A program made the position numbers and the translations under genes. From positions 1 through 55,759 of the forward strand of contig DXFS01000017.1 of the NCBI GenBank assembly GCA_019114345.1: 55,759 nucleotides of DNA. The letters run 5' to 3'. The first letter of the stretch is position 1; every line of letters starts with the position of its first letter. Below are positions 39,211-55,759 of the stretch, one piece after another. This DNA is from Candidatus Agathobaculum pullistercoris (lineage in GTDB: Bacteria > Bacillota > Clostridia > Oscillospirales > Butyricicoccaceae). A model generated the notes under the pieces. The model was not told the origin of the DNA and did no database searches. It saw only the letters and a program-made list of their open reading frames with translations.

Positions 39211-40617
39211 TTACAAAACGATCGCGTTGACCGCCTCGATCAGATCGACGACAGTATACCGGGGAACCAGGGAAGTGGGCGTGCCGTCGAGAACCGCAAG
39301 GCACTGTTCGCCGTCGTAGCGGTACAGATCAATCTGTACGGTCGGGTGAGCCTCGTTATCCAGGTGCACCGTTAAGCTGATCTCCTCTTTCTGGGACGGT
39401 TCTTCGTCGGTAAAGCTGGCCGCGCCCATGTCTTCCAGTGCGGACTGCAAATCGGCAATATCCAGCTCTTCTTCTCCATAATAGAAGGTTTTGTCGTCGC
39501 CGCTGCCTTCTGCTGTGATAGTATAGCTTTCGCCTTCCAGAGTGATATCCAGTCCGGTCACATCTGCGAAATCTGCCGTCAGCACCTCGTAATGCCGCAG
39601 GTCGTCATACCCGGCTTCCATCAGAGACTCGTAGCTGTCTCCGGTGATCTGGTAAACAATCTGCGATTCGCCTACCCGTGCGTAGGCGGTGATCTCCTCT
39701 GTGGATTCGTCTTCAGTATCTTCCGCTTCGGCATCCTCCGCTGCCTGTTCGTCCGGGTCGCGGCTGATATGGAGGGTGAATTCTGCCGTGCCCTCGCTGT
39801 CATCGGGGACGTATGTTACAGTTACGCTCAGTTCCGGTGCATCCAGCCCATACTCCGCCAGTTCCTCCTCCGATACATTGTAAGAGACATAATCGGTCAG
39901 GTCCAGGCTGGACAGGGCATCCAGATAGCTTTCCACGCGGCTGGTATCCAGCGGCAGCATATTGTCCTCCTGCTGGACAAAGTACACATCGTCGCTGCAA
40001 TAGGTATAGCTGCTGTCCTCAGTGTATTCCTGATAGACGATCTGATAGGTTTGATCGCCTTCGAAACGGATTTCCTGCACGGTATCAAAGGAAGGAGCCT
40101 CATCGTTGTCGATCATATCGCGCAGCGTTGCATCGAAATAATCCAGCGGGTCAGCAGCTGCCAGATAGACATTGCCGTCCCCGAGGGAAACATAGCGCTG
40201 GGAGTCCATTGCGTTGAAGTCGCCGAGCTGGATTTCATAATCCGTGTCACCGGTGGAAAGGCTTATGGTGCAGACCGGATCGTCCAGTCCGTACTGGCTG
40301 TAATCCGACACATCTTCGATTGTAAACGCCGCGCTGAACGCTTCGAATACGCCCAAAAGCTCATCGATCTTGTCTTCATCGACCGGGAAAGCCTCGTCTG
40401 TGTCGTAAATCCAGGTTTCATCCTTATGGAATGCAAGGGTTTCCGAATCATATTCCCAAGACAGCGTCTGAACCGTGGCGGGATCTATCTCCAGTACCAC
40501 TTCGCCGCTGACCTCGATTTGCTCCTGCTTTTCTTCATACCGCGTAACAGCGAATGTCACGACGCCTACTACGGCCAGTACGCTGAGCAGGATATAAAGC
40601 TGCTTAGACCGTTTCAT
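39211..40617 (-). CDS. DUF4340 domain-containing membrane-anchored protein
   Basis: The 468-residue protein has an N-terminal anchor (residues ~7-25). Acidic, beta-rich repeats typical of DUF4340 follow (ETWIYDTDEAFPVDEDKIDE, YGLDDPVCTISLSTGDTDYE, YGLDAPELSVTVTY). DUF4340 proteins are commonly encoded with ABC-2 permeases and GldG-like proteins, as here. Their role is unknown; an extracytoplasmic accessory of the exporter is likely. It overlaps the GldG-like gene by 14 bases and is the last gene of the operon. Confidence 0.85.
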   Translation of the reverse strand: MKRSKQLYILLSVLAVVGVVTFAVTRYEEKQEQIEVSGEVVLEIDPATVQTLSWEYDSETLAFHKDETWIYDTDEAFPVDEDKIDELLGVFEAFSAAFTIEDVSDYSQYGLDDPVCTISLSTGDTDYEIQLGDFNAMDSQRYVSLGDGNVYLAAADPLDYFDATLRDMIDNDEAPSFDTVQEIRFEGDQTYQIVYQEYTEDSSYTYCSDDVYFVQQEDNMLPLDTSRVESYLDALSSLDLTDYVSYNVSEEELAEYGLDAPELSVTVTYVPDDSEGTAEFTLHISRDPDEQAAEDAEAEDTEDESTEEITAYARVGESQIVYQITGDSYESLMEAGYDDLRHYEVLTADFADVTGLDITLEGESYTITAEGSGDDKTFYYGEEELDIADLQSALEDMGAASFTDEEPSQKEEISLTVHLDNEAHPTVQIDLYRYDGEQCLAVLDGTPTSLVPRYTVVDLIEAVNAIVL

Positions 40618-42055
40618 GCTGCTTCCTCCTTCTCTTCATGATGACATAGATCCCGCCTCCCAGATATGCGAGCGGGAATACGCCGATCATCAGGGTTTTC
40701 AGCAGTGCAGCGGTCGAATCGCTGATCGAAAGGTAATTATAGTTGAGCGATTTGCTGCGGATCGCCATGGCTTCGCTCTCTCCGATCAGCGAGGCCAGCG
40801 CGTTCATCGCCAGATCCGCATTTGAGCCGGAAGACAGTGCATTGTACATATCATCCAGGAAGGAAGCGGATGAGAACCAGACGATCTGCCCTTCGTTGCC
40901 GCAGTCCACGGACAGGGCTACGGCAAACGGCCCGTCCACATCGCCCTCTTCCTTTTCGTAAGTATCCAGATCGTACCCGGCAGCCTTGCTGAAGGAGGCG
41001 TCCGATGTGGTCAGCAGCTCGGTAACGGAAACGCCGTCGCTCTCCGGCCCGACAAACATCGCCTGCGAGATCGGCATATTGGGATAATAGTTTTCTTCGA
41101 TCAGGGAATCCGTGATATCGCTGCTCTGCATGTCCGGCAGCAGGATATAGGGCTGGACCGTGTAGTGCTCCCGGTCGCCTTCCACGACAATGCCGTCATA
41201 GGTTTCCACGCCGTATTCGGCCAGCAGGCTGTACAGGTTTTCGAGCACGCCGTCCTCGGTCGGGCCTGCCATGACCAGCAGCCGGCCGCCGTTTTTCGTA
41301 TAGTTGGACAGAAGCTCTGCCTCCTCCTGGGAAATATCAGAAGAGGGTTCGTAGATCATGACACAGTCCGCCTCCTCCGGGATTTCATCCACGGTCAGCA
41401 GGGACAGGGTGTTGATCTCGATGTTTTCCTTTTCAATCTGATCGCTGAACGTGGCGGGCAGCTCCTGTTCCCCGTGTCCTTCGACTACATACAGCTGGGG
41501 CAGGTCCTCGGTGGTTACATAGTCGATGGCCGAGGTGATCGCCCCTTCGCCGTCAAACGAAGTGCTGTAAGAATAGGAGTACAGATCGGCCTCCTGAATA
41601 TAGATGTCGTCATACCCGATATAGCGGCTGCGGTCCCCGCATTCCACGACCAGGCTGTTGTTCTGGACGGTTTCGCTGGTATACTGCTCGGCAAAGGTCG
41701 GGTAGACATCCGGGTTGCGCTTGACTACGCTGATGTGATCGGACAGGCTGTCATATTTATTCAGCAGGGTCTCGATCACATCATCTTCCTCACCGGACTG
41801 CACGATCCAGTAGATCGTCACATCCTCCTCCAGCGCATTTACAACGACTTTGGTGTTGCTGGTGATTGAATAGAGTTTGGAAGCGCTGATGTCATAGCGT
41901 GTCAGGGATGCCGGCAGCGCGGAAGCCAGTATATTGACCAGGATCAGGATCGCCAGAACGATTGCGGTCACCATCAGGGAATACGAACCGCCCTGAAATG
42001 CGAGACGGTTTTTGTCCGCCGGTTTGATATGCGAAAGGAAGTCCGGAAGCTTCAT
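40604..42055 (-). CDS. GldG-family ABC transporter auxiliary protein
   Basis: The 483-residue protein has an N-terminal membrane helix (~28-50) and a large extracytoplasmic domain of the ABC_transp_aux/GldG type (YDISASKLYSITSNTKVV, DVTIYWIVQSGEEDDVIETL, LTVDEIPEEADCVMIYEPSSD, NGGRLLVMAGP). A C-terminal helix (~450-470) precedes a basic tail. GldG was named in Bacteroidetes gliding motility, but homologues occur with ABC-2 exporters in many Firmicutes, and motility is not implied. It overlaps its neighbours on both sides. Confidence 0.85.
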   Translation of the reverse strand: MKLPDFLSHIKPADKNRLAFQGGSYSLMVTAIVLAILILVNILASALPASLTRYDISASKLYSITSNTKVVVNALEEDVTIYWIVQSGEEDDVIETLLNKYDSLSDHISVVKRNPDVYPTFAEQYTSETVQNNSLVVECGDRSRYIGYDDIYIQEADLYSYSYSTSFDGEGAITSAIDYVTTEDLPQLYVVEGHGEQELPATFSDQIEKENIEINTLSLLTVDEIPEEADCVMIYEPSSDISQEEAELLSNYTKNGGRLLVMAGPTEDGVLENLYSLLAEYGVETYDGIVVEGDREHYTVQPYILLPDMQSSDITDSLIEENYYPNMPISQAMFVGPESDGVSVTELLTTSDASFSKAAGYDLDTYEKEEGDVDGPFAVALSVDCGNEGQIVWFSSASFLDDMYNALSSGSNADLAMNALASLIGESEAMAIRSKSLNYNYLSISDSTAALLKTLMIGVFPLAYLGGGIYVIMKRRRKQHETV

Positions 42056-42918
42056 CAGCTATACCTCCTTTTTTCCAGCGACTGAATGGACAGAAACAGG
42101 AAAAACGCAGTTACCGATAAGTAATACACAACAGCGGCCAGATCAAATACGCCGCTGACAAAGGTGTTCAGCCGGTCAAACAGCGACAGCTGCTGCATGA
42201 TACCTGGCAACAGCCCTTCCAGGCTGGCCGAGTCCACGAATGTGATCACGCAGATCACGGCTGTCAGCACCAGGCATACACCGTAGGCGAGCAGTTCATT
42301 GCGGGTCAGGTACCGGATCACCGCGCCAAGCGCGAAAATAAGCACTGCCAGTGCGATAACCGTGCCGATCGCAGTGGATGATACATATTCGGACAAGCTG
42401 ACGCTGTAATAATTAAACAGGATGGCCGCGATGGTGATGCCTGCTGCAAGGCCCTGGTTATCCGTCAGGGAGGAGATGAATACGCCGATGGCAAGCAGCG
42501 CAGCCCCCATCAGGAAGACAGCGACCAGCGATCCGTAGGAGGTGGGCAGGTATACATCTCCGAACTGGGCGAAGATCAGGGGATAAACCGAGATCACCGC
42601 CAAGGGGATCAGGAACACCGCCAGAAGCGCGGCAAACTTCCCCAGCACCACCTGCGTCGTGGTGATGGGCAGCGAATACAGCAGCTGGTCGGTCTTTTGC
42701 CGGCGCTCCTCTGCGATGACGCGCATCGTCAGGATGGGGACGATCACCACAAAGACAATGCTGCCGAAGCTGAGCACATACTCAAAATTACTGACCGCCG
42801 CCTGCAGGTTGTAGAGCATCGCGCCAAAGCCGACGATCGCCAGCAGGAACGCGCCGAATACATAAGCGGTGAAAGAATGGAAATAGCTTCTCAGTTCGTG
42901 CTTGAATACGGCTGTCAT
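42055..42918 (-). CDS. ABC-2 type permease (GldF-like)
   Basis: The 287-residue protein has six predicted membrane helices and ABC-2 permease features (KHELRSYFHSFTAYVFGAFL at the N-terminus, PILTMRVIAEERRQKTDQLL between helices 2 and 3). It starts four bases inside the ATPase gene (ATGA) and its stop touches the GldG-like start. It forms the export channel with the adjacent ATPase; the substrate is unknown. Confidence 0.9.
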   Translation of the reverse strand: MTAVFKHELRSYFHSFTAYVFGAFLLAIVGFGAMLYNLQAAVSNFEYVLSFGSIVFVVIVPILTMRVIAEERRQKTDQLLYSLPITTTQVVLGKFAALLAVFLIPLAVISVYPLIFAQFGDVYLPTSYGSLVAVFLMGAALLAIGVFISSLTDNQGLAAGITIAAILFNYYSVSLSEYVSSTAIGTVIALAVLIFALGAVIRYLTRNELLAYGVCLVLTAVICVITFVDSASLEGLLPGIMQQLSLFDRLNTFVSGVFDLAAVVYYLSVTAFFLFLSIQSLEKRRYS

Positions 42919-43907
42919 GCCTGTTCCACCTCGCTTTCCGGATGCGCTGCATCCGCTTGGGCCGCCGGATCACTGCCGTCGGTCAGTTCAATGAAGATAT
43001 CCTCCAGGCTTGCTTTTTGCAGCTCCAGTTCGAGCAGCGCCTGTTTTTTGTCCGCGAATGCGAAAAACAGGCTGCGGGAAACCGCGTAAATATCGCTGCT
43101 GCCGGTCTTGACTTCCGCCGTTACAAGACCGTGATCCGGCTCATGGATGACGGCATCGGTGATATCCTGCACAGAGGACAGGATTTCACGCACCACCGCG
43201 GCAGGGGCATCGGTCGTGAACACGATCCCGCTGTCTGCCAGAAGGCGTTTTTCCAAATTGTCCGGCTTGTCGAATGCAATCAGTTTGCCGTGGGCAATAA
43301 TCAGGATCCTGTCGCAGATCGCCTGTACCTCCGAAAGGATATGCGAACTGAAAATGACCGTATGCTCCTGCCCCAGCTGCCGGATCAGGTCGCGGATTTC
43401 AATGATCTGAAGCGGGTCAAGGCCGACGGTCGGCTCGTCCAGAATGATGACTTTGGGATTGCCCAGCAGCGCCTGCGCAATACCGACGCGCTGCTTGTAG
43501 CCTTTGGACAGAGACGAGATCCGCTGTCCGCATACATCCCGGATCCTGACCTGTTCGATCACCTGCCGGATCTGCAGCTCCAGCTCTGCTTTTTTCAGGC
43601 CCTTTGCCTCGCCGACAAAGCGCAGATATTCCTCCGGCGTTTCATTCATATAGAGCGGCGGCTGCTCGGGCAGATAGCCGATCAGCTGTTTTGCCTGCAT
43701 CGCATCGGTAAAGATGTCAAATCCGCCGATCTCCACACAGCCTGAGGTAGCGGAAAGACAGCCGGACATGATATTCATTGTCGTTGTCTTTCCCGCCCCG
43801 TTCGGTCCGAGGAATCCGTATACGTGCCCTTCGTCAATGGTAAAAGAGAGGTCGTCGACCGCGAGAAAGTCACCATAGTATTTGGTCAAATGCTTCACAG
43901 ATATCAT
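42915..43907 (-). CDS. ABC transporter ATP-binding protein (GldA/CcmA-like)
   Basis: The 330-residue ATPase has Walker A GPNGAGKTT, the signature LSKGYKQRVGIAQAL, Walker B VIILDEPTVGLDPLQ, and a C-terminal extension typical of ABC-2 exporters. The ATG follows AAGGAGGACC. It heads the ATPase-permease-GldG-DUF4340 operon. The promoter has a -10 at 43963-43968 and a tandem regulator site just upstream. Confidence 0.93.
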   Translation of the reverse strand: MISVKHLTKYYGDFLAVDDLSFTIDEGHVYGFLGPNGAGKTTTMNIMSGCLSATSGCVEIGGFDIFTDAMQAKQLIGYLPEQPPLYMNETPEEYLRFVGEAKGLKKAELELQIRQVIEQVRIRDVCGQRISSLSKGYKQRVGIAQALLGNPKVIILDEPTVGLDPLQIIEIRDLIRQLGQEHTVIFSSHILSEVQAICDRILIIAHGKLIAFDKPDNLEKRLLADSGIVFTTDAPAAVVREILSSVQDITDAVIHEPDHGLVTAEVKTGSSDIYAVSRSLFFAFADKKQALLELELQKASLEDIFIELTDGSDPAAQADAAHPESEVEQA

Positions 43908-43962
43908 GGGGGTCCTCCTTGCCCATTGTATTCGCGGGGCGGCGCTTGCCAGCCCTTGACCC

Positions 43963-43994
43963 AGTATACGCTGCCACGCTAAACTGGCGCTAAA
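43963..43994 (-). promoter_or_regulatory. ABC operon promoter with tandem response-regulator site
   Basis: On minus: two TTTAGCG copies 11 bases apart (43988-43994 and 43977-43983), eight bases, then TATACT (43963-43968). There is no normal -35. The same layout occurs before the OmpR-type regulator at 46154, which suggests activation by that regulator. Confidence 0.65.
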
Positions 43995-44021
43995 GAAACC
44001 GGCGCGCCCGGCAAAATATAT

Positions 44022-44059
44022 GGGCGGCGTGCTCCGCTGCCAACGAAGCTGCGCCGCCC
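44022..44059 (-). terminator. Terminator after the histidine kinase gene
   Basis: GGGCGGCG (44022-44029) pairs with CGCCGCCC (44052-44059). On minus it is followed by ATATATTTT. Confidence 0.7.
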
Positions 44060-44079
44060 AAAGAGATGCCCTGGTATTC

Positions 44080-45309
44080 CTATTTTAATTCGACCCGGAA
44101 GCCGATCGTCCGCTCTTTTTTGTATGCATGGATGCTCCGGTGGTATTTTGTCACGATAGACTGTGCAATGGAGAGGCCTACGCCAAAGCTGCCGGAAAAT
44201 GTTCGGGCTTTGTCCGCGCGGTAAAACCGGTCGAACAGCTTATCCAGTTCAAGCTCATCGACATTGGCATAGGTGTTTTCGACGGTGAGCACCGGATGGT
44301 GTTTCCGGCAGAAATGCAGCCGGATGCAGCCGCCGGTGTCGCAATATTTGACCGCATTGTCCAGCAGAATAGAAACCAGCCTGCGGACCAGCGCCTCGTC
44401 TCCGTGATAGGACAGGCCGGGCTGGATTTCGGATAGAAGCGTTTTGCTGCGTTCCGCCGCCAACGGCTGGAATTCCGACACGGTGTCGGAAACAGCGGCG
44501 CTGATATTGAACTCTGTGAGAACAGGCGGGGCATCGCCTTCGTCCATTCGGGACAATTCGACCATTTTGTTGATCAGCAGCCCCATGCGTTCCCCTTCGC
44601 TGCGGATATCCTCCAGCCATTCATTTTTCCCGACTTCGGATTCCACAATATCCAGATTGGAAAGGATGAGTGTGAGCGGGGTTTTCAGCTCATGGTTTGC
44701 GTCTGTGATAAACTGTTTTTGCTTTTCGTAGCTGTCCGCCACCGGGCGGACGGCCCGCTTGGAGATAATGATGGTGAGGATCAGGATCAGGGCCGCGCTG
44801 CCGAAAAGAATAAAAAATGCGGAACACAGCTGGCGGAATGTCATATTCCGGTGCATATTGCCGTTGACAAAGACAAGCATCGTCCCCTCATCTGTGGGGG
44901 ATGCCTTATATCGGTAATCCGATACCCAGCCGCGTGTGTGTCCTTCTGCGGCTGCCTCCCTGGCATACGTTTCTACATCCGATTCGGAAATCGCCGCTAT
45001 GGCATCCATATTAACCTGGGAAATCTGCTGTGCCTGATCCAGCCAGACCGTAAAAAAACGGGTGCTGAACCGGGTTTCTTCGGTGATCACGTCCGAATAG
45101 ACAAACCAGTCCGACCATGCAGAGCGCTCGGACGGCCTGAAGGCGGGAAATTCCCCGCCGTTGGAAGCGATCGCATCCGTCAGCGTATCCAGAACGCGGT
45201 TGGTTTGTGCGATGTTCGATGCAGACAGAAACAGGAAAATGCCCATAAAGACGATCATAATGGAAAATGCGCTTACAATGATAAATTTTTTCCGCAGGCT
45301 GACGATCAT
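44080..45309 (-). CDS. Sensor histidine kinase
   Basis: The 409-residue kinase has two membrane helices (~12-32 and ~155-178) around an extracellular sensor. The HisKA phospho-acceptor is His206 in DANHELKTPLTLILSN, followed by the N box LLDNAVKYC, FDRFYRADKARTFSG and FGVGLSIAQSIV. It overlaps the response regulator by four bases (ATGA). It lies just downstream of that regulator and upstream of the ABC exporter operon, a common arrangement for stress- or peptide-sensing systems. The ligand is unknown. Confidence 0.93.
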   Translation of the reverse strand: MIVSLRKKFIIVSAFSIMIVFMGIFLFLSASNIAQTNRVLDTLTDAIASNGGEFPAFRPSERSAWSDWFVYSDVITEETRFSTRFFTVWLDQAQQISQVNMDAIAAISESDVETYAREAAAEGHTRGWVSDYRYKASPTDEGTMLVFVNGNMHRNMTFRQLCSAFFILFGSAALILILTIIISKRAVRPVADSYEKQKQFITDANHELKTPLTLILSNLDIVESEVGKNEWLEDIRSEGERMGLLINKMVELSRMDEGDAPPVLTEFNISAAVSDTVSEFQPLAAERSKTLLSEIQPGLSYHGDEALVRRLVSILLDNAVKYCDTGGCIRLHFCRKHHPVLTVENTYANVDELELDKLFDRFYRADKARTFSGSFGVGLSIAQSIVTKYHRSIHAYKKERTIGFRVELK

Positions 45310-45980
45310 GGGTCTACCTCTAAAACATATCCGGCATTGCGGATAAACCGTATTTCCATCGGGGCGCCAAGCGCTGCTATTTTCTTTCGTATGTTGGAGA
45401 TATGCACCCAGACCACACTGGTGTCGACATTGGTGTCCCAGCCCCAGAGATGTGTGATGAAACGTTCCGTAGGGATAATGATGCCGGGGGTCTGCATCAG
45501 CATTTCCAGTATCTGAAATTCCTTGCCGCTCAGCGCCTGCATCCGCCCCTGGCAGAGCAGCTGGTACGTGGAGCGGTTTAACGTCACCTGCCCCAGAGAC
45601 AAAAGGTCCGGCAAATACGTATCCTTGCGGCGCAGCATGGCCCGGACCCGCGCGAGCAGTTCGGCGGTGGAAAAGGGCTTGGGCAGGTAATCATCGGCGC
45701 CGCTGTCCAGCCCCTCTACCCGCTGGGACACTTCGGTCCGTGCGGTCAGAAAAAGCGCGGGGGTCGTGATCCCTTCGCTGCGAAGCGTCTGCAGCACCCG
45801 GATGCCGTCCATACCCGGCATCATGATATCCATGATCAGTCCGTCGTACTCCATCGTCCGCCCGTACGAAAGCGCAGCCGCCCCGTCGGATACCCCGTCG
45901 ACGCTGAACCTGTTGCTTTCAAAAATGTGGATCAGCGTTTTGAGCAGTTTGGGGTCGTCTTCTGCGATCAGGAGTTTCAT
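45306..45980 (-). CDS. OmpR-family response regulator
   Basis: The 224-residue protein has a receiver domain (acidic E7-D8-D9, phospho-acceptor D51 in LIMDIMMPGMDG, Lys in LPKPFSTAEL). The C-terminal winged helix contains LSGKEFQILEMLMQTPG and VDTSVVWVHISNIRKKI. The ATG at 45980 (AAAGGAGA upstream) is preferred over a long unsupported extension. A promoter with tandem TTTAGGC sites lies 174 bases upstream, and a similar site precedes the ABC operon, so autoregulation plus exporter control is likely. Confidence 0.93.
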   Translation of the reverse strand: MKLLIAEDDPKLLKTLIHIFESNRFSVDGVSDGAAALSYGRTMEYDGLIMDIMMPGMDGIRVLQTLRSEGITTPALFLTARTEVSQRVEGLDSGADDYLPKPFSTAELLARVRAMLRRKDTYLPDLLSLGQVTLNRSTYQLLCQGRMQALSGKEFQILEMLMQTPGIIIPTERFITHLWGWDTNVDTSVVWVHISNIRKKIAALGAPMEIRFIRNAGYVLEVDP

Positions 45981-46153
45981 ATATCCGGCGTCTCCTTTCA
46001 TGGTGCTGCATAGTATTAAAGGTAAAAGATGGGGCTGCGCGGTATGCGTGTTCCGGAACCCGGATCGCAGCAGGAACAGAGACCGCCTGCACGGCGGGAT
46101 TTTTGCGGGGTTCTGCCAAACATCGGCTGCGGAGCGCCCGTAAGCATGATATA

Positions 46154-46185
46154 AGCATATCATACGAGCCTAAAGGCAGCCTAAA
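46154..46185 (-). promoter_or_regulatory. Response regulator operon promoter with tandem site
   Basis: On minus: TTTAGGC at 46179-46185 and again at 46168-46174 (11-base period), eight bases, then TATGCT (46154-46159). The geometry matches the ABC operon promoter at 43963 exactly. Confidence 0.65.
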
Positions 46186-46935: not shown

Positions 46936-49900
46936 ATGAAGAATCTCAAAAAGGTTCTCGCACTGGTGCTGGCGTTCGCTTGCGCGTTCACCATGTTTGC
47001 CGGTGCGGCATTCACGGATGAGGCCGACATCCAGGCCAAAGACGCCGTGAACATGCTTACGTCGCTGGGCGTGATTGAGGGCTATGAAGATGGCTCTTTC
47101 AATCCCGATGGCACCGTAACACGCGCGGAAATGGCGAAGATGATCTTCGTTGTCCGCAACAACACTATTGATGATTCGGCCTACGAGAACATTACCTCGA
47201 ATCTGACCGACATCAACAACCACTGGGCCAAGGGCTACATTAAGTTCTGTGAGTCCCAGGGCATTATTGCCGGTAAGGGCAACGGCATCTTTGATCCGGA
47301 CGCGACCGTAACTGGCACCGAGGCGGCCAAGATGCTGCTCGTTCTGGCGGGCTACGACGCTGATAAGGCCGGCCTGGAAGGCGCTAGCTGGGAAACCAAC
47401 ACCCTGCGCTATGCAGGCGCTGCCGGTATCCTGGACAACGTTGCTTCCGGCCTCTCTTCCGGACTGCCGCGTCAGTACGCTGCGCAGATGATCTACAACA
47501 CCCTGGACGCAAACCGCGTCAAGTGGTCCACCGACTCCGATTCCTTTGACGATAACCTCGGCAATGGCTACAAGGAGACCGTAGGCTATGCGTACATGGA
47601 TCTGTGCTCGGACTACGGCACCCTGACCACCATCACCAGCGACTCGCTGACCATCAAGCTGGATCAGAGCTATAACAGCGACAACTACCATAAGTGGGAC
47701 AGCACTAGCACCAAAACCGTATCCTTCACTAAGGTAGATACCGATTACTCCAGCCTGCTGGGCCAGACCGTCAAGGTCATGTTCAAGGACGGCAAGACCA
47801 ACAATGTCCTCGGCGTTTTTGCGATCTCGGACAACACGGTCTACTCCACTTACATGAACCAGACCGAGCTGGACGGCAGCAAGATCAAGTTTGGCGGCAC
47901 CTCTTACTCCGTAGATGATGCTAATAACAATGCTGGCACCCAGATCAATGTCATCGTTGACGGCGCTGCTGCTGACGCCAAGGACCTGTCTTACTTTGAC
48001 GACACCGCTGAAAATAAGGTTTCGATGAACATGGTCGTCTTTGCGGATACCGACAGCAACAACCGCATTGACACTGCGATCGTTACCACCTACACCGGCG
48101 GCCAGGTAACCTACGTCGGCTCCGACAAGATTACCTTCGACGGCAAGTCCTATAATTTCGACGACGAGAATATCGACGAGAACATCGCAAAGGACGACTG
48201 GGCTGTCATGTCCACCAACCTTTACGATGACTGCAAGGACATTGTACGCGCAGACATTCTGAACACTGAACTGACCGGCTATAAGGAGAAGGACGGCTAT
48301 GTTCAGTACGAGTTGGATGGCAAGTGGTATAACATGGCTTCTGAGGATACCGATGTTACCACCGGCGACAATGTAAAGGCATACGTTTACAACGGCGTTG
48401 TGCTCGACCTCGACACCGACGACGGCACGGGTGCGATCCCGACCAACATCGCGGTTGTTGTCGGCAAGGGCAAAAGCGGCCTGGACGGCGATCAGGCTAA
48501 GATCCGCCTGTTCGACGGCACGGTCAAGACCGTAACCATGTCCGACGACAGCGTACCTACCATCACCGAAGGCACTGCATACAAGATCTCCGGTTCCGAC
48601 TCGGATACGAAGTTCGAAGCTCTGACCGAAAATGACAAGTACAACGGCTTTACGTATGTTGGCACGGGTGCGGCCGCTCCGAGTGATGACAAGATTGACG
48701 GTGTCAAGGTTGCGGACGAAGCTGTGATTATTCTGTGGTCCGGCAATGGCCGCTCCAAGCAGATCACCGGCAAGCAGTTCAACGCGCTGTCGGATACTAC
48801 CGAGGGTATGCTGTCTGACCTGAGCCAGGCGGCAACCGCAGTATTCACCAAGGAAACCAATGGCCTGACCCGCGTCCGCATGGCGGCTGTCAAGGTTGAA
48901 AGCACGGATCTGGTCGGTGAATCCAGCGATAACTACGCTTACATCGTAAGCGGCGGCACGCAGACTACTGGCGGCGATGTGCGCTACACCATCTGGACCG
49001 GCTCTGAGAACGTACAGGTTACTGAGGATACCGCTTACTCCAAGGGCATCCGCGCGAAGGGTACGCTGATCGGCTACTCCGAGATCGATGCGGACGGCTA
49101 CATCAACGACGTAAAGGTTTACGGCACGATCGATGACGCTAAGGATGCTTCCGGCGAGCTCAAGACTACCGAGATGTACCGTGGCGGTAACGAGGCCAAC
49201 GTTTCGGGCTACATTGCCATCAATGGCGCGCAGTTCAATGTAACGGCTGATACCACCGTACTGTTGGTTGATTCCAAGGCTGATACCGACAGCTCGATTG
49301 GCTTGAAGTACACCTACGGCGATAAGCTGCCGCAGGCTTCCAAGTACAAGGACGCTGGCGTTGACAAGTATCTGGTCAATGCATTCTGGATCATGGACGA
49401 GGCAGGCAGCGACGATAAGGACATCGCTGTTCTGGTTATCGACTCCACCGGCGCATTCGACGGCTTCGAGTTGGATGATGTGCAGGCTCCGAAGATTACT
49501 GCTGAAAAGACCTCCGGTGGCGCATCTACCACTGTTGGGACGAAAGCTGAGCTGAAATATACATTGACTGCCTCTAATTATGCTACCGATGCTGCTGATG
49601 TTACGACCTCTATTAACTCTGAGGATAATACCAACATCACTGCTTCTGGTACGGGTGCTTTTGCTGTCAAGAACAATGGTACTCAGGAGATTACTGTGAC
49701 GGTCGGCACCTCTACCGCTATTGGTACGTATAATATTCAGATCAAGGCGGGCAATACTGTTCTGCTGACAGATACCTTTGAGGTTACTGCAAAGCCGGTT
49801 GCCACCCTGGATCCTGTTACTGCAAACGACAACACCACAACGTTTACCGAAGCTGGTAAGGTCAAGGCTGGTAGTACACTGGATATCATCGTTGGCAAGC

Positions 49901-50157
49901 TCAATACAAATGATACCACTAATGTGAGGGCTTCGTTTAAGATTGTGGCTAACGATCGTCCGAGCGCAGATACCTCTGTTTACACTCCGGTTGCAGGTGA
50001 AAAGGTTACAATCACCGCTACCTTTACTCCGGAGGCAGACTACGCAATTACTGCTACCGCAGCTCCGACTCTGGCAGGCACGAATGCTGATGCTGACTCG
50101 TTCAGTGTAACGAATGGTATTGCAACTGCAACTTATACGTTCACTGTCGTGGCGTGA
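46936..50157 (+). CDS. Large S-layer homology protein
   Basis: The 1073-residue protein has a signal peptide (ending near FAGAAF-TDE) and three N-terminal SLH domains (YEDGSFNPDGTVTRAEMAKM, LTDINNHWAKGYIKFCESQG, GNGIFDPDATVTGTEAAKML). A very long beta-rich, Asp/Thr-rich ectodomain follows, ending in Ig-like repeats. SLH domains bind pyruvylated wall polysaccharide, so this is probably a main S-layer or surface-coat protein. It is homologous along most of its length to the minus-strand protein at 52042. From about 49500 its codons become T/A-ending and lower in GC than the rest, which suggests a replaced or variable C-terminus. Confidence 0.9.
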   Translation: MKNLKKVLALVLAFACAFTMFAGAAFTDEADIQAKDAVNMLTSLGVIEGYEDGSFNPDGTVTRAEMAKMIFVVRNNTIDDSAYENITSNLTDINNHWAKGYIKFCESQGIIAGKGNGIFDPDATVTGTEAAKMLLVLAGYDADKAGLEGASWETNTLRYAGAAGILDNVASGLSSGLPRQYAAQMIYNTLDANRVKWSTDSDSFDDNLGNGYKETVGYAYMDLCSDYGTLTTITSDSLTIKLDQSYNSDNYHKWDSTSTKTVSFTKVDTDYSSLLGQTVKVMFKDGKTNNVLGVFAISDNTVYSTYMNQTELDGSKIKFGGTSYSVDDANNNAGTQINVIVDGAAADAKDLSYFDDTAENKVSMNMVVFADTDSNNRIDTAIVTTYTGGQVTYVGSDKITFDGKSYNFDDENIDENIAKDDWAVMSTNLYDDCKDIVRADILNTELTGYKEKDGYVQYELDGKWYNMASEDTDVTTGDNVKAYVYNGVVLDLDTDDGTGAIPTNIAVVVGKGKSGLDGDQAKIRLFDGTVKTVTMSDDSVPTITEGTAYKISGSDSDTKFEALTENDKYNGFTYVGTGAAAPSDDKIDGVKVADEAVIILWSGNGRSKQITGKQFNALSDTTEGMLSDLSQAATAVFTKETNGLTRVRMAAVKVESTDLVGESSDNYAYIVSGGTQTTGGDVRYTIWTGSENVQVTEDTAYSKGIRAKGTLIGYSEIDADGYINDVKVYGTIDDAKDASGELKTTEMYRGGNEANVSGYIAINGAQFNVTADTTVLLVDSKADTDSSIGLKYTYGDKLPQASKYKDAGVDKYLVNAFWIMDEAGSDDKDIAVLVIDSTGAFDGFELDDVQAPKITAEKTSGGASTTVGTKAELKYTLTASNYATDAADVTTSINSEDNTNITASGTGAFAVKNNGTQEITVTVGTSTAIGTYNIQIKAGNTVLLTDTFEVTAKPVATLDPVTANDNTTTFTEAGKVKAGSTLDIIVGKLNTNDTTNVRASFKIVANDRPSADTSVYTPVAGEKVTITATFTPEADYAITATAAPTLAGTNADADSFSVTNGIATATYTFTVVA

Positions 50158-50177
50158 TCAATTTTCCTTAACAGACG

Positions 50178-50206
50178 AAAACCCCCGATTTTCGGGGGTT
50201 TTCCCT
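50178..50206 (+). terminator. Intrinsic terminator after the first S-layer gene
   Basis: AAAACCCCCGA (50178-50188) pairs with TCGGGGGTTTT (50192-50202). Confidence 0.9.
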
Positions 50207-50233
50207 TTCTATAAGACGAAAAGGGATGAAATT

Positions 50234-50527
50234 ATGACAAAAAATAACCCCAGAAAGACGATCACGCAGCTCATGCAATGTTCCGTCAACGAGCTGCGCG
50301 ACCGCTTTTGCGTGAAGCGTCCTACCGAAGGATGCTACCGCTTTGAAGAGATTGAAAACTCCAAGCATTTCGTGCTCGTAAGCGTAAAAAAACCTGAAGA
50401 CTCATTTTCTGCACTGGTGGATGCGGACTTCGATTTTGACCGCATGGCGGGATCGAATAACTATCCGCAACTGCTGGATCTGGGCCGCAAATTGGCGGAT
50501 GCGTTTGATTTGCCAATTTACTGGTGA
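50234..50527 (+). CDS. Small hypothetical protein
   Basis: This 97-residue soluble protein begins MTKNNPRKTITQLMQCSVNE and ends LADAFDLPIYW. I do not recognise a family. It has no signal peptide or membrane segment. The ATG at 50234 follows AAGGGATG; that ribosome site can pair with CCCTTT at 50203-50208, so it may be partly masked. It lies between the first S-layer gene and the tail-fibre-like pair, and its terminator is shared with the convergent gene at 50562. An in-frame extension back to 50114 overlaps the S-layer gene and is unlikely. Confidence 0.65.
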   Translation: MTKNNPRKTITQLMQCSVNELRDRFCVKRPTEGCYRFEEIENSKHFVLVSVKKPEDSFSALVDADFDFDRMAGSNNYPQLLDLGRKLADAFDLPIYW

Positions 50528-50563
50528 AAAAAGCAGCGCCCCTTTCGGGGACGCTGCTTTTTT
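50527..50563. terminator. Bidirectional terminator between convergent small genes
   Basis: AAAAAAGCAGCG plus CCCC (50527-50542) pairs with 50547-50563 (one bulged base). T-runs flank it on both strands, and it overlaps the stop codon of the minus-strand gene. Confidence 0.85.
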
Positions 50564-51095
50564 ATTTTAATGCCGCGTAAACATACGTAATATTACTGGA
50601 ATTCAATCTGCTGCGTTTATTTTCGCTGTCGATAAGCTGAAAGCCATTTGCAGTAAGCAAGCAGAAATCATCATCCGTCATCTCATCCTTGGGGAAGGCC
50701 AAACACTGATAAGTGTACCCGACGGAGCCGGTCATGCCGTCCGCGCGCATCACGAATACCATTTGTGGCGCAAACCCCAGCGTGATATCCCGCGGAAACT
50801 CAGAGTTGCCGATGTATGTCCCCCAATACAGGTCGCTTCTGCGCGCCATGTCGGCGGACAGTTCCTGTGACAGCATGGATTCCGTGATCGTATCGCCGAA
50901 GGTCTCTGCGACGATACCCTCGACGCGGGCCTCGAGCCGCGCCGCGTCGTCGCAGACAGCGTTGTGCGCAACGCGGAGCTCCTCCGGGCTGCTGTCGAAC
51001 CGCGCCTTGAGTTCATCCGCCGGTAAATTTGGTTGATCAGGTAAATCTGCAATTCTGTGGGTAAAAGCCGTAATTTTGTGGTCAGAAAAAGACAT
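50562..51095 (-). CDS. Phage tail-fibre-like protein, copy A
   Basis: The 177-residue protein has a conserved N-terminus (MSFSDHKITAFTHRIADLPD, then LPADELKARFDSSPEELR) followed by a coiled-coil-like stretch (65-100) and a C-terminal domain (ITLGFAPQMVFVM ... YVYAALK). The LPD/P-ELKARFDSSPEELR-AHN pattern and the LGFAP-VFV end are what I associate with phage tail or host-recognition proteins; the family is inferred by eye. There is no signal peptide. It starts at ATG 51095 behind AAAAGGAGG. It is the divergent paralog of the gene at 51407, and the two share promoter and leader design. Confidence 0.7.
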   Translation of the reverse strand: MSFSDHKITAFTHRIADLPDQPNLPADELKARFDSSPEELRVAHNAVCDDAARLEARVEGIVAETFGDTITESMLSQELSADMARRSDLYWGTYIGNSEFPRDITLGFAPQMVFVMRADGMTGSVGYTYQCLAFPKDEMTDDDFCLLTANGFQLIDSENKRSRLNSSNITYVYAALK

Positions 51096-51109
51096 TGCGT
51101 TCCTCCTTT

Positions 51110-51190
51110 TTGTTGGTACTGCTCGCGCGCGGTCATTGGACAGCGCGCGCGGGCGCGCGTGGAGCGTTTCCGCCCCGGGTGGTTTTTCCT
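51110..51190 (-). promoter_or_regulatory. GC-rich 5' leader hairpin of copy A
   Basis: In the minus transcript, a GCTC-CA-CGCGCG arm can pair with CGCGCGCGAGC shortly before the ribosome site. Copy B has a comparable (CG)n stem at the same place. Stability is high enough to affect translation, but the role is unknown. Confidence 0.45.
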
Positions 51191-51214
51191 GTCCGGGAGT
51201 TGTAAGCATCTGAT

Positions 51215-51286
51215 AGAATACCCGATATTTCAAAAAGCGCAAGAGCGATTATTTGCTCTTGCGCTTTCGATATTTCCGGCTATTCT
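51215..51286. promoter_or_regulatory. Mirror-image divergent promoters around a palindrome
   Basis: AAAGCGCAAGAGC (51234-51246) and GCTCTTGCGCTTT (51255-51267) form a perfect 13-bp inverted repeat with loop GATTATTT. Each arm holds a TTGCGC -35 (51237-51242 minus, 51259-51264 plus). Each is followed after 16 bases by TATTCT (51215-51220 minus, 51281-51286 plus). Similarity continues outward for about 20 bases on both sides. The pair serves copies A and B. Confidence 0.7.
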
Positions 51287-51333
51287 TATAGACGCTTACT
51301 TCCCCGTGTTGGTACACAAAACGGGACGGGTAT

Positions 51334-51383
51334 CCCTCACGCGCGCGCCCGCGTGGTCAGAGGAACGCGCGCGAGGGAGACCG
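51334..51383 (+). promoter_or_regulatory. GC-rich 5' leader hairpin of copy B
   Basis: TCCCTC-A-CGCGCGCG pairs with CGCGCGCGAGGGA, forming a stem of about 14 bp with one bulge, about 25 bases before AAAGGAGG. It matches the leader stem of copy A in position and composition. Confidence 0.5.
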
Positions 51384-51406
51384 CCACAAACAAAAGGAGG
51401 TTTTTC

Positions 51407-51961
51407 ATGTCATTTTCCGATCATAAGATCACCCAGTTTACCCACAGGATCACCGAGCTGCCCGACCAGCCCAACCTGCCCGCCGACGAGCTGAAAGCGC
51501 GGTTCGACAGCAGCCCGGAGGAACTCCGCACCGCGCACAACGCCGTCTGCGACGACGCGCAAACGCTCTCAGACAAGGTCGAGAGCATCATCACCCAGAC
51601 GTTCGAGGGAACGATCGACAGGGAAATGCTGTCGGACGAGTTGGAGGCCGACCTGACCGCTCTCGAAACCGCCGTGCCGCTTAAGTGCGAGGCCTATTTC
51701 GGCTACTACACCGGCAATGGCGGAAGCACCCAGCAGATCGACCTTGGCTTTGCGCCAAAGGCAGTGCTTGTTATCAATCCGTACGATACGAGCGAAACCA
51801 CGGACGAGATGAATTTCTGCAGCATGGGCATGCAGGGCAACCCTACGGTCTACACCTGCGTCTATGTCAATGAAACCGGGTTCCTGCTCCGCACCAACGG
51901 CAATATTGGTGACGGGGTGAACAAGTATAACCGCAGATACTTCTATGCCGCGTTCAAGTAA
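51407..51961 (+). CDS. Phage tail-fibre-like protein, copy B
   Basis: The 184-residue protein has almost the same N-terminus as copy A (MSFSDHKITQFTHRITELPD, then LPADELKARFDSSPEELR). A helical stretch and a C-terminal domain (IDLGFAPKAVLVINP ... YFYAAFK) follow, and these are only distantly similar to copy A. About 28 of the first 31 residues agree between copies, so this part is under strong constraint. There is no signal peptide. The ATG at 51407 follows AAAAGGAGG. It may be a prophage-derived or domesticated receptor-binding protein; function unknown. Confidence 0.7.
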   Translation: MSFSDHKITQFTHRITELPDQPNLPADELKARFDSSPEELRTAHNAVCDDAQTLSDKVESIITQTFEGTIDREMLSDELEADLTALETAVPLKCEAYFGYYTGNGGSTQQIDLGFAPKAVLVINPYDTSETTDEMNFCSMGMQGNPTVYTCVYVNETGFLLRTNGNIGDGVNKYNRRYFYAAFK

Positions 51962-51974
51962 CCGGCGCAAAAGG

Positions 51975-51998
51975 AAAAGCCCCTAAAGAGGGGCTTTT
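51975..51998. terminator. Bidirectional terminator between copy B and the second S-layer gene
   Basis: AAAAGCCCC (51975-51983) pairs with GGGGCTTTT (51990-51998) across loop TAAAGA. Confidence 0.85.
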
Positions 51999-52041
51999 CG
52001 ATTGCCTGTTGGTTTGCAGTGTCAGGCACACATTCAGTCAA

Positions 52042-55000
52042 TTACGCAATGGTCCAAACGGAGCCATTCCACGACAGGGTCTGAGCAGCGTTGGTGTTAG
52101 TTGCATCGTTTGCAGCGCTGACTGCGCCAGTATTGATTGTAATACCGCCACCATTGTCAATGTTGTTATTCTGGAAGCTAATAATCAGCTTGTCGCCATC
52201 TGCACGTACAGAAACATTATTGATGTCGGTCGATGCATCATGCTTTACGGTCACCTTAGATGCGTCAGCAACACGGATATCCATATTGAAGTCGATAATC
52301 CAGGTGTAACCCGAATCTTCGGAAGTGATGTTCGGGGTGCTGCCGGTCTTTTCAACAGCAGGCTTGATGATCGGTTCAACTGTTACGTTGGTCGCATCCA
52401 GCTTTACATTGTTATTGATCGTCAGTGCCTTCGGAGTAGAAACCTGGTCATTGACCAGCGTCCAAGTCAGTGTCTGGCCGCCAACCTTAACCGTGACAAC
52501 GTACTCGTTTGCAGCAGTCGGAGTCTTGTCGAGCTTTGCGGTCAGGTTGAGCGAAGCGCCGCCGTCAACCATCTGCGTCGCCGGAGCGATCGTCAGGGTT
52601 GCCGTCTCAGACTCGTCAACGCCGTTAAACGTGTTCAGAGCAACTCCGTTCAGGCCGGTGAAGGTGTACTTCGCGCCATCGCTCTCCACGTCGGTGAAGG
52701 TTACCTTAACGTAGCCCTTGCCGGTCGCAGTTACCTGAGTCGAAGTGCTGCCTGCAGCCACACCATTAGCATCGGTAATCGTTACCGTTCTTTCGACCTT
52801 TTCGGTAATACCGGTAATCGTCATAGTGCCCGTCGCGTTGATTTCGTCAGCCTTCCAGATGTTGGTCTTAAACTTCAGAGTCTGCTCCGATCCAGTCTGA
52901 ACTTCCCGTGTAGCGAGGTTCTGGTTAGCCAGCTCGCTGTACGCAATCGGGGTCTCGCCGTCGAAGTAGAGAACCTTCACCTTGGAAGCAGTCAGGCTGC
53001 CGTCAACCAGTTCAACCGTAACTTCGTCGTAAACGCCGAAGTCAGCGGTGTTGTTCGTGATCTTCTGCGATCCAGCCGCCAGAGCGGTCTCCTCATAAGT
53101 GCCAACCAGCTTGCCGTCGCCGTATACCTTGTACTCTACGGTGTAGGTCGCGTCGTCGGTCGCCCAAGCCGGCTGATCAACGGTCATGTTGAAGATCAGG
53201 TCGCCGTCGCCATTGACACGGGTCGAGGAAACGGATACATAATCCATTACATCCTCATCCGCGCCATCGTTTGCGGTATCCTTGCCGTAAACGGTGTTGT
53301 CGCCGTCTACGCCGAGAACATCGTCGTAGTAGTCGCTCTCAAGGTACAGGCCCTGGTCAACAACCAGCAGCTCGCAGTCGCCGTTATTCTCGCCGATGTA
53401 CAGCGCGTTCGCCATGTACGGGTTGCCATTCAGGTCGTAGTTCTTCAGCGCAACCTTTACGTCGCCGTCGGTAATGGCAGCGCCGTTCTTGGAGTCAACA
53501 TAGATGATGGTAGCGTCGGAGATATCCATCTCGTCGCCATTGCTCATGATGACGGTGTTGCCGTTATCGGAAACCGTGGTAATCGCGGAGAATACCAGGC
53601 CGCCATCATTGCGATCCAGCACAACCGCACCCTCGATGCCGTAGGTGCCTTCCTCAACGTTCTCAACAACCGCGCGGACAACCACGCCGTCGCCGGTCAG
53701 CTCGTCATAGCCCAGAACGGTGTTCTTCTGGCGCTCGTTCAGGTCGTCGATCTCTTCCTGTACGTTGTAGATATAACCGTCGGTGAACAGCTGGTACTCA
53801 GCGATACCGTTGTTGCGGTTAACCCACTTCGCGTTGGTCAGGATGTAGCCGTAGTGGTTCCAGGTCGGGATGCCGATCTTGCTGAGATCCAGACCCTCGT
53901 CTACCTGCAGTGCCAGCGCGCCGATGCGGTTCAGGCCGCCCATGTCGCCGGAGAAGCCGTATGCAGCCGCACCAGCAACAACGCCCTTGCCATTCAGCAG
54001 ATTCTCGACATTGGGGATGTCGTTGAACTTCTTACCGGTGATGCTTACAACATCCCAGTCAGCGTCAGCGCCGTCCTTGGCCCAGTACAGCAGTACCTGT
54101 GCATTGTCGTCGATCTTGACGCGGTCGAAATGGTCGCCGTCCAGCTCAGCAATATCTGCATTTACATCGCCGCGGAAGGACAGGTCGCCGTAGTACTCCT
54201 CGTAATCCTCCCATTTATCGTTGCGGCCTTCAATACCAGCCTTAAGCGCAGAGAAGCGGTACTCGTCGCCGATCACCGTATACTCGTAAGCCACGCCGAC
54301 CTCGATATCAACGCTCTTGTCCTCAATGTCGACAACCTTGGTGTCGCCGTTGAAGAACGCGATGCGGGCCTGCTCAGCTACTGCATTGTGGCCAGTCTCC
54401 GCCAGAACAACCGCTACGTTGTCCACGCGGCCGGTGTTCGTGCCGGAAGAACGCTCGATGTAGAACATGATGCCGTTGACTGCAACGTAGTCAACCGCCT
54501 GAACTGCCTTGACATTCTTCAGGTCGTTCTCGCTGCGGGCAGACTGAACAGCGTCGTCGCCGCCAGCATACCAGTTGTCGCCGATCTGGTACTCGTCGTA
54601 GTTATTGACATTCTTGAGTTCCTGACCGTCGAAGTACATGCTGCCGCTCTTGTCGTTGCGCATTGCGTCGAGGTCAGCGGACTGTACCTCTACCGGCTCA
54701 ATATTCCAGCAGTCGTTGTACATGTCGTGGGTGATAACAACCCAGTCGTCCTTCTCGATGCCGTCCGCGATGATCTCGTCATCATACTTGTAGGTCTGGC
54801 CTGCAGCGATGACACGGTCGGAAGCAACGTAGGAAACCTTCGCAACGTCGTAGGTGCGGACAACCAGGGTGTCCAGACGGCCGTTGTCATCCGTATCCAC
54901 GAAGGTATACATGTTCGGGTTCAGGGTGTTGTGGTCCAGCTCGTCGAGCGAGGTCCACTGCGCATTCTTGTCGCCGTCAATGTAGGTGGTGATGCCGCCC

Positions 55001-55759
55001 TCATCGTCCAGACGATAGGAATTGCCGCCAAACGCAACCTTTTCCTCATCCTTGGAGGTGTCGTTTGCCTCTACGGTGTAAACCGTGTTGTCAACGGTCG
55101 CATAAACGCCGATCACCGAGTTGTTCTTGCCACCCTCAAACAGCACCTTGACCTTCTGGCCAAGCAGCTCAGAGTAGTCGGTGTCAAGGTCAATGAACTC
55201 CTTGATAGACGGAGCATCGCTGTCCGCTTCGTCAGACTGCGTCATGGTGATCGTCAGCGCATCGCCGTCGATACCGATAAGGGTGCCGATGTTGGTGTAC
55301 AGATCCATCCACTTGTTGCCGACGGAGATTGCCGGGCCGCCGAAGGACAGGCCTTCCTTGGAGTCATTGACGAAGTTCTCAACAACTGCGGAGTAGCGGA
55401 CAGCAGTAGCACCCAGGCAGTTAGCGAGGATCTGCGCCGCATCCTGACGGGTGCAGCCTGCGCTCATTGCGGAGGCAACGTTATCGGTCAGGCCGATCGT
55501 GGTTGCGTAGGTCAGGGTGTTCTTCTGCCAGTCGATGCCGGTCAGGCCAGCATTCTCCTCGTCGTAGCCAGCCAGCGCCAGAGCCATCTTCATGGCCTCA
55601 GCAGTGGTGACCTGCGCATCCGGTGCAAACTGGGTCGCAGACTTACCAGCAACGATGCCGGTATTCTGCAGGTACTTGATGTAGCCCTCCGCCCAGTGGC
55701 CGGAGATGTCGGTAAAGGACGTCGTGTTGCCAACGTGAGCAGACGCGTCGTCATTACCG
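52042..55759 (-). CDS. Large S-layer homology protein, 5' end beyond the window
   Basis: The reading frame is open from the right window edge to TAA at 52042 (about 1238 residues seen). At the edge it is still inside SLH domains: GHWAEGYIKYLQ-type sequence and FAPDAQVTTAEAMKMALALAG. The true start is therefore outside, and the internal ATG at 55593 is not the start. The ectodomain follows the same plan as the protein at 46936 (LDTDYSELLGQKVKVLFEGG versus a near match there, DDWVVITHDMYNDC). It ends in Ig-like repeats. It is probably a paralogous S-layer subunit oriented toward the first one. Confidence 0.9.
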   Translation of the reverse strand, partial: GNDDASAHVGNTTSFTDISGHWAEGYIKYLQNTGIVAGKSATQFAPDAQVTTAEAMKMALALAGYDEENAGLTGIDWQKNTLTYATTIGLTDNVASAMSAGCTRQDAAQILANCLGATAVRYSAVVENFVNDSKEGLSFGGPAISVGNKWMDLYTNIGTLIGIDGDALTITMTQSDEADSDAPSIKEFIDLDTDYSELLGQKVKVLFEGGKNNSVIGVYATVDNTVYTVEANDTSKDEEKVAFGGNSYRLDDEGGITTYIDGDKNAQWTSLDELDHNTLNPNMYTFVDTDDNGRLDTLVVRTYDVAKVSYVASDRVIAAGQTYKYDDEIIADGIEKDDWVVITHDMYNDCWNIEPVEVQSADLDAMRNDKSGSMYFDGQELKNVNNYDEYQIGDNWYAGGDDAVQSARSENDLKNVKAVQAVDYVAVNGIMFYIERSSGTNTGRVDNVAVVLAETGHNAVAEQARIAFFNGDTKVVDIEDKSVDIEVGVAYEYTVIGDEYRFSALKAGIEGRNDKWEDYEEYYGDLSFRGDVNADIAELDGDHFDRVKIDDNAQVLLYWAKDGADADWDVVSITGKKFNDIPNVENLLNGKGVVAGAAAYGFSGDMGGLNRIGALALQVDEGLDLSKIGIPTWNHYGYILTNAKWVNRNNGIAEYQLFTDGYIYNVQEEIDDLNERQKNTVLGYDELTGDGVVVRAVVENVEEGTYGIEGAVVLDRNDGGLVFSAITTVSDNGNTVIMSNGDEMDISDATIIYVDSKNGAAITDGDVKVALKNYDLNGNPYMANALYIGENNGDCELLVVDQGLYLESDYYDDVLGVDGDNTVYGKDTANDGADEDVMDYVSVSSTRVNGDGDLIFNMTVDQPAWATDDATYTVEYKVYGDGKLVGTYEETALAAGSQKITNNTADFGVYDEVTVELVDGSLTASKVKVLYFDGETPIAYSELANQNLATREVQTGSEQTLKFKTNIWKADEINATGTMTITGITEKVERTVTITDANGVAAGSTSTQVTATGKGYVKVTFTDVESDGAKYTFTGLNGVALNTFNGVDESETATLTIAPATQMVDGGASLNLTAKLDKTPTAANEYVVTVKVGGQTLTWTLVNDQVSTPKALTINNNVKLDATNVTVEPIIKPAVEKTGSTPNITSEDSGYTWIIDFNMDIRVADASKVTVKHDASTDINNVSVRADGDKLIISFQNNNIDNGGGITINTGAVSAANDATNTNAAQTLSWNGSVWTIA

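Follow-up and report, generated by a model that had tools for sequence, protein, structure and literature searches.

Look-alike promoters standing back to back probably account for a palindrome between two tail-fibre-like genes of Candidatus Agathobaculum pullistercoris

Between two head-to-head genes of Candidatus Agathobaculum pullistercoris lies a perfect palindrome whose arms hold the predicted -35 boxes of both genes. We consider it probable that this palindrome consists of two look-alike promoters placed back to back, most likely by way of a terminator-type hairpin, and that it is not a genetic switch. Ordinary parts would suffice for such a layout, because promoters of the same family stand back to back and the axis between them has, in Agathobaculum, the shape of a terminator. 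We base this view on conservation among genomes, on covariation of the palindrome arms (some of the sequences having been selected as palindromic), on the dependence of the left arm on the direction of the neighbouring gene and on the recurrence of the arrangement in a second genus, together with the finding that the leaders are not reoriented between one pair of orthologous loci. The window, as we use the term, is the whole stretch of DNA analysed, namely 55,759 nucleotides of contig DXFS01000017.1 (assembly GCA_019114345.1).

Gene A (50562-51095, minus strand) encodes a protein of 177 aa and gene B (51407-51961, plus strand), an open reading frame, encodes its paralogue of 184 aa; the two proteins are 48% identical. 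They are head to head and flanked by two convergent S-layer-type genes. On the left, an S-layer-homology (SLH) protein gene (46936-50157, plus strand), an open reading frame with a Pfam SLH match at E 1.5e-24, converges with gene A. On the right, a gene cut by the contig end (52042-55759, minus strand) converges with gene B; its product shares 32% identity with the left SLH protein and has a partial SLH-region match at 55372-55749, the part 52045-55593 being without a Pfam match. A small reading frame of 97 aa between the left SLH gene and gene A (50234-50527) is without a Pfam or PHROG match. Genes for a histidine kinase and an OmpR-type response regulator (44080-46163) adjoin the left SLH gene on its other side and are, judging by their position, candidate regulators of the fibre-S-layer unit.

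The N-termini of A and B resemble the phage tail fibre family PHROG 14469 (E 4e-11 and 1.4e-11, respectively), and a Pfam search of both proteins gave nothing above the cut-off. Identity to 11 phage records is 51-54% over residues 7-49 or 7-53. In other words, the N-terminal 50 or so residues are like those of Bacillus phage tail fibres (Palmer, Pavlov, Pookie, Pony, poppyseed, Page), whereas the C-terminal part differs from PHROG 14469 and from the phage proteins, and the genes described here converge on S-layer genes and lie in no tail cluster. A sequence search of solved structures returned five weak matches (E 0.068-0.92), including one putative tail fibre at E 0.52. With a structural model of B (pLDDT 75, pTM 0.49), a fold search found no solved structure below E 0.001; among viral predicted structures there were eight matches below 0.001, all with low TM-scores (0.33-0.37 on the query), and one of the eight is named a tail fibre protein, so that these model-based matches give only a hint of a tail fibre.

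The intergenic segment 51096-51406 had originally been described as an imperfect inverted duplication, and the alignments agree. Its right half and the reverse complement of its left half are identical in 109 of 164 columns, with a score of 42 compared with a mean of -8.0 in shuffles (sd 5.2, maximum 9.5). When the segment is aligned with its own reverse complement, the observed score is reached by none of 1000 dinucleotide shuffles; the score of the leaders alone (120 nt per side) is reached by none of 1000 shuffles and by none of 1000 random pairs of stretches from the window. The axis of the duplication is the palindrome at 51234-51267, AAAGCGCAAGAGC-GATTATTT-GCTCTTGCGCTTT, with perfect arms of 13 bp and a loop of 8 bases, which may alternatively be drawn with 15-base arms containing mismatches and a 4-base loop. 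Its centre (51250.5) coincides with the midpoint between the start codons of A and B (51251). Both -35 boxes do lie inside it, as the original prediction had it: TTGCGC at 51237-51242 on the minus strand, in the left arm, for A, and at 51259-51264 on the plus strand, in the right arm, for B, the two being separated by 16 bp. The string TTGCGC-16-TATTCT is present on each side, with the -10 boxes TATTCT at 51215-51220 (A, minus strand) and 51281-51286 (B, plus strand). The other paired elements of that description are also in place, namely similar stretches after the -10 boxes (ATGCTTAC and ACGCTTAC), CG-rich leader stems (51121-51154, minus strand, leader type 2, for A; 51333-51378, plus strand, leader type 1, for B) and AAAAGGAGG sites. 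From sequence, the ribosome-binding site of A is AAAAAGGAGG (51102-51111, minus strand) and that of B is AAAAGGAGG (51392-51400, plus strand).

Perfect inverted repeats as large as this one are not uncommon in the genome of the window: the window itself has eight with arms of at least 13 and loops of 3-10. Of the other seven, six come immediately after the end of a gene and one lies between divergent starts, according to a crude gene call. The palindrome core has no other match in the window with up to three mismatches allowed. The stability of the window hairpin is -21.6 and -23.9 kcal/mol. At the palindrome, a generic consensus scan flagged neither a sigma-70 promoter nor a terminator; it finds no sigma-70 promoter because TTGCGC matches TTGACA at only three of six positions. 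The promoters are predicted ones, and their assignment rests on conservation between genomes. A search of Rfam gave five matches up to E 1, each under its gathering score. Among them, sraL (51234-51374, minus strand, overlapping the palindrome and a leader; E 0.027, 22.7 bits versus a gathering score of 39) was set aside.

The conservation is extensive. Searching 25 genomes of the genus, including that of the window, at the protein level gave matches in 16, from which 17 stretches were taken. L050 (prophage-like, with a C-terminal match only) and a few weak matches were excluded from all counts. The 24 genes whose upstream DNA was examined comprise 10 in five head-to-head pairs (one in the window, three in A. 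massiliense and one in genome G003, representing three distinct sequences) and 14 unpaired genes. Every one of the 24 carries a -35/-10 pair, spaced by 16 bp in 21 cases and by 17 bp in three, and upstream of 23 of them CTTGCnnTTT is followed by TATTmT 16-17 bp past the hexamer. The -35 box is TTGCnn in 23 genes and TTGACA in one, and the -10 box is TATTCT in 15 and TATTAT in nine. TTG, TA..T and a gap of 15-18 were preset in the box finder, so that the independent evidence consists of the other positions, the narrow spacing, the preceding C and the trailing TTT. A strict genus-wide pattern of the whole promoter found only three places, its gap being fixed to GCTT. The head-to-head duplicated promoters with -35 boxes in the palindrome arms are thus backed by conservation in all five Agathobaculum pairs. 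Joint control of both promoters, as the original prediction envisaged, would be compatible with an element common to nearly every gene of the family.

The predicted leaders downstream of these promoters tend to fold: 21 of 24 do so at -26 kcal/mol or below, the weak ones being L045, L048 and L049. The folding is partly a matter of GC content, because z-scores from mononucleotide shuffles span 0.2 to -5.9. In the computed fold of several predicted leaders, including those of the window (51096-51208 and 51293-51406), the transcript start (GCTTRYTT.CC) pairs with the ribosome-binding region, a pairing that could allow translational regulation.

All five head-to-head pairs share a matching palindrome with 15-base arms, mismatches included, and a 4-base loop, and the gap between the -35 hexamers is exactly 16 bp in each. 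A palindrome of the same type, with no divergent fibre gene, is found at five unpaired genes (L041, the second copy of L042, L043, L045 and L048). In these ten palindromes (eight distinct), 119 of 120 cells are paired and four of the 15 base pairs show double changes, a result obtained by 2 of 500 shuffles, with the reservation that the five singles were picked for being palindromic, which inflates both pairing and double changes. The covariation score is reached by none of 500 shuffles, in a set of related sequences, which inflates such tests. There are no double changes when the partner is slid as a control. One of the five covariation measures, the number of further pair types, is unremarkable, its value being reached by 446 of 500 shuffles. 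Among the unselected pairs only (three distinct sequences), two positions are altered on both sides and there is one G-T pair, in the window. Such joint arm changes in pairs (GCGC to CCGC, GAGC to GGGC) are not predicted by independent promoters and therefore suggest either selection on the dyad or gene conversion.

What appears to distinguish genes with the full palindrome from those without it is the direction of the upstream gene. The left arm is intact at five of the 14 unpaired genes, each with a co-directional upstream gene (a resolvase, two O-antigen-ligase-like genes, an AraC-type gene and an IS110 remnant), and at none of the eight with a divergent neighbour (an epimerase, two SLH proteins, three sodium-alanine symporters, an MNTSVG gene and MurT). 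In the sixth co-directional case, L038, behind an SLH-transglutaminase gene, a different hairpin with a T-run abuts the -35 box. The Fisher p value is 0.003 for the 14 genes and 0.048 after collapsing them to locus contexts, both being optimistic since the genes are related; it rises to 0.10 if L040 and L044 are classed as palindromic on account of their long-loop repeats. The upstream gene was identified by a Pfam match in 12 of the 14 cases. At L048, the IS110 match is just under the family cut-off; at the first copy of L042, the neighbour is a reverse-strand reading, the start of an MNTSVG protein present in other loci, and the ORF called there on the opposite strand has no Pfam match. The repeats at L040 and L044 have 11-bp arms, a loop of 20-23 and a divergent neighbour, and their left arm is the CTTGCAT of a divergent promoter-like string, CTTGCAT-16-TATAAT, directed at the symporter gene. 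Here again, two predicted promoters would point away from each other.

The hairpin itself has some features of a terminator. Its stem pattern, GCAAGRGC..GCYCTTGC, is present 11 times in the 25 genomes: nine instances are fibre promoters, and the remaining two (G009 and G020) lie directly after the stop codon of an O-antigen-ligase-like gene, with no TATTmT at 16-17 bp. In G020, the hairpin is followed by a T-run of six, and the fibre gene lies some 3 kb further on, behind the S-layer gene; in G009, the expected side reads TTCAG, with next to no T-run, and the hairpin is 133 bases from the contig end. These two hairpins seem to fit a terminator existing without a promoter, with a reservation for G009. 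In the eight bases past the stem, the five singles have 7, 6, 8, 7 and 6 T, and three of the five pairs, read in both directions, have 4, 5, 5, 5, 6 and 3. The tract after the window stem is short, with 4 and 5 T of 8. At all five unpaired loci with an intact palindrome, an upstream gene runs towards the palindrome and ends there; in the window, both flanking genes are read away from it.

Taken together, these data suggest how the segment may have come about. We infer that it is the junction of an old inverted duplication of a two-gene unit, in which a promoter and a tail-fibre-like gene would be followed by a convergent S-layer gene. Each copy would have brought its own promoter element, CTTGCGCTTT-13-TATTCT, which forms one arm of a terminator-shaped hairpin; both -35 boxes would lie in hairpin arms because the axis of the duplication runs through that hairpin. 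Behind a co-directional gene, the full hairpin with its T-run would act as an intrinsic terminator that also supplies the -35 box of the next promoter. In pairs, the arrangement would amount mainly to two back-to-back promoters with overlapping upstream DNA and predicted starts about 85 bp apart, so that two RNA polymerases would compete for, or share, the common upstream DNA. The hairpin left over in pairs may weakly stop antisense read-through.

Parts of this scheme have counterparts elsewhere. In vitro measurements have shown RNA polymerase recycling from an intrinsic (Rho-independent) terminator to a promoter close by (PMC11347151). The unpaired loci are like the terminators near promoters considered in that study in having a stable stem with an A-run before it and a T-run after it, at the end of an upstream gene and with a promoter directly adjacent. 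They differ from them in that the -35 box is part of the descending arm itself, and the pairs differ further in that neither gene's promoter transcribes into the hairpin. In yeast, hairpin-mediated foldback inversion places a hairpin at the axis of inverted duplications (PMC7467729). A hairpin with a short stem and a small loop at such an axis is common to both cases; the process has been shown in yeast, whereas in the window we see just the final product, at an old junction.

The arrangement is not limited to Agathobaculum. In G045, which represents another genus of the family, TATGGCTTGACA occurs seven times in 3.3 Mb, always at fibre-gene promoters, and its reversed control pattern occurs twice. 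The two head-to-head pairs of this genome, which resemble each other, have a 12-bp inverted repeat that encloses TTGACA -35 boxes around a 37-base loop; for its three unpaired genes, no mirrored arm is present within 70 bases. Back-to-back promoters of the same family thus appear to make such a palindrome there too, with a sequence and a geometry other than those in Agathobaculum. Upstream of all seven G045 promoters we also noticed a conserved dyad-like stretch around GGCAATTTTCC (L111, about 7110-7170; L112, about 14098-14160), which is possibly an operator.

An operator is also what the palindrome itself might be, if a dimeric regulator bound it, covered both -35 boxes and controlled the two genes jointly. 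We regard this as rather unlikely, with a fair number of observations in its favour. The arms covary (again with the caveat of selection) and change jointly in pairs, the exact string TTGCRCTTT-13-TATTMT is found in the genome of the window only at the promoters of A and B, the combination of TATGGCTTGACA with the upstream dyad-like stretch at every G045 promoter is what a regulator site would look like, and the two-component genes lie beside the left SLH gene. Nonetheless, nine of the 14 unpaired Agathobaculum genes do without an intact left arm, eight of these nine retaining the CTTGCnnTTT half; the left arm follows the direction of the upstream gene; and at two places the dyad stands behind another gene without a promoter.

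The stem had further been proposed as a recombination target that inverts the segment, so that recombination at the palindrome or between the inverted 5' ends would swap the promoters of A and B. This proposal, which we now consider very improbable, fares poorly in a comparison of the window with the middle pair of A. massiliense, where leader type, gene and S-layer gene stay together. Protein A shares 70.6% identity with the right copy of that pair, the left SLH protein is 73.8% identical to the SLH protein adjoining the same copy, and the right SLH protein finds its best match (40.8%) in the remaining SLH protein of the pair. Counting back from the start codon, the nearest 60 bases show 85% identity between A and the right copy and 86% between B and the other copy, compared with 50 and 58% crosswise; the next 60 leader bases give 71 and 80%, compared with 53 and 62%. 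The outermost 60 bases, which hold the promoter, are too alike on the two sides to reveal their own orientation (65 versus 66% and 68 versus 75%). In this one comparison, leader, gene and S-layer gene thus appear not to have been reoriented; a flip of the palindrome core alone would escape it. The presence of the palindrome at unpaired genes, which have no partner to swap with, also speaks against a recombination target, as does the promoter element carried by both genes, with which flipping would turn nothing off. No recombinase was found among the six left-hand genes scanned (39211-46163) or the genes of the locus, the contig ending on the right.

DNA has nonetheless been exchanged between inverted copies. 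In A. massiliense, left and right copies are 98-100% identical over codons 21-60 or so, with leaders at 50-73% and unrelated C-termini, and pairs 1 and 3 are 96-100% identical up to about codon 80 and unrelated thereafter; the G003 pair is 95-98% identical to about codon 100. The near-identical N-terminal DNA of the six A. massiliense fibre genes (L034, 7589-9172; L035, 3507-4976 and 14163-15713) may be taken as a sign of gene conversion. Two further observations would suit inversion. The whole fibre-S-layer unit has opposite orientations relative to an O-antigen-ligase-like gene in different species (L036, L040-L047), both being found in G003, and a serine resolvase gene is the immediate upstream neighbour of the G011 fibre gene (L041, 9003-9602). 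In Lactobacillus acidophilus, the related 5' ends of slpA and slpB reportedly lie inverted. Of these two genes one is silent, and expression is switched when a gene moves into the active position (PMC6176008); both systems have two paralogues at a surface-layer locus, and the one described here differs in that both copies carry the promoter element and orientation is unchanged in one comparison.

Arms of 13-15 bp with a small loop could extrude as a cruciform. That extrusion in supercoiled DNA controls both promoters, which the repetition of the same geometry in all five pairs might suggest, is scarcely credible to us, given that the G045 pairs have a 37-base loop yet remain head to head and that six of the seven other inverted repeats of the window, equal or larger, lie behind gene ends as terminators do.

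Back-to-back promoters, our preferred reading of the palindrome, leave the genes they would serve to be considered. Of the 23 Agathobaculum fibre-like genes with enough contig, 22 converge on an SLH-type gene, the exception being L049; this count leaves out L037, where the contig ends in the gene, and L050, and in two of the 22 (the window and L036) the partner is cut by the contig end. Outside Agathobaculum, all seven G045 genes and the single G051 gene do the same. None of 11 loci in genus g3 is convergent on an SLH gene, two of them having a co-directional downstream SLH-like frame, and the G050 locus has neither. Convergence of fibre-like genes on S-layer-homology genes is therefore seen in three genera (window 46936-55759; L034-L048; L110-L112). 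Across the fibre-like genes, the N-terminus is constant and the C-terminus highly variable. Among the papers searched on S-layer, SLH, tail fibre and prophage in Agathobaculum, Butyricicoccus and Ruminococcaceae, judged by titles and the openings of abstracts, we found no fibre-S-layer unit. It is tempting, if decidedly speculative and in our opinion improbable, to think of chromosomal fibre-S-layer units with mirrored promoters as two alternative units competitively expressed from a control region of about 85 bp, a system for surface variation or phage interaction in which each fibre would match its S-layer allele.

The palindrome of the window illustrates how ordinary parts, namely a promoter with its -35 box in a terminator-type hairpin and a head-to-head copy of it, can give rise to a conspicuous promoter palindrome. 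Of greater interest than this palindrome is the convergence of fibre-like genes on S-layer genes in three genera. It draws attention, in gut Clostridia, to a unit of a phage-fibre-like gene and an S-layer gene, whose function is now testable.
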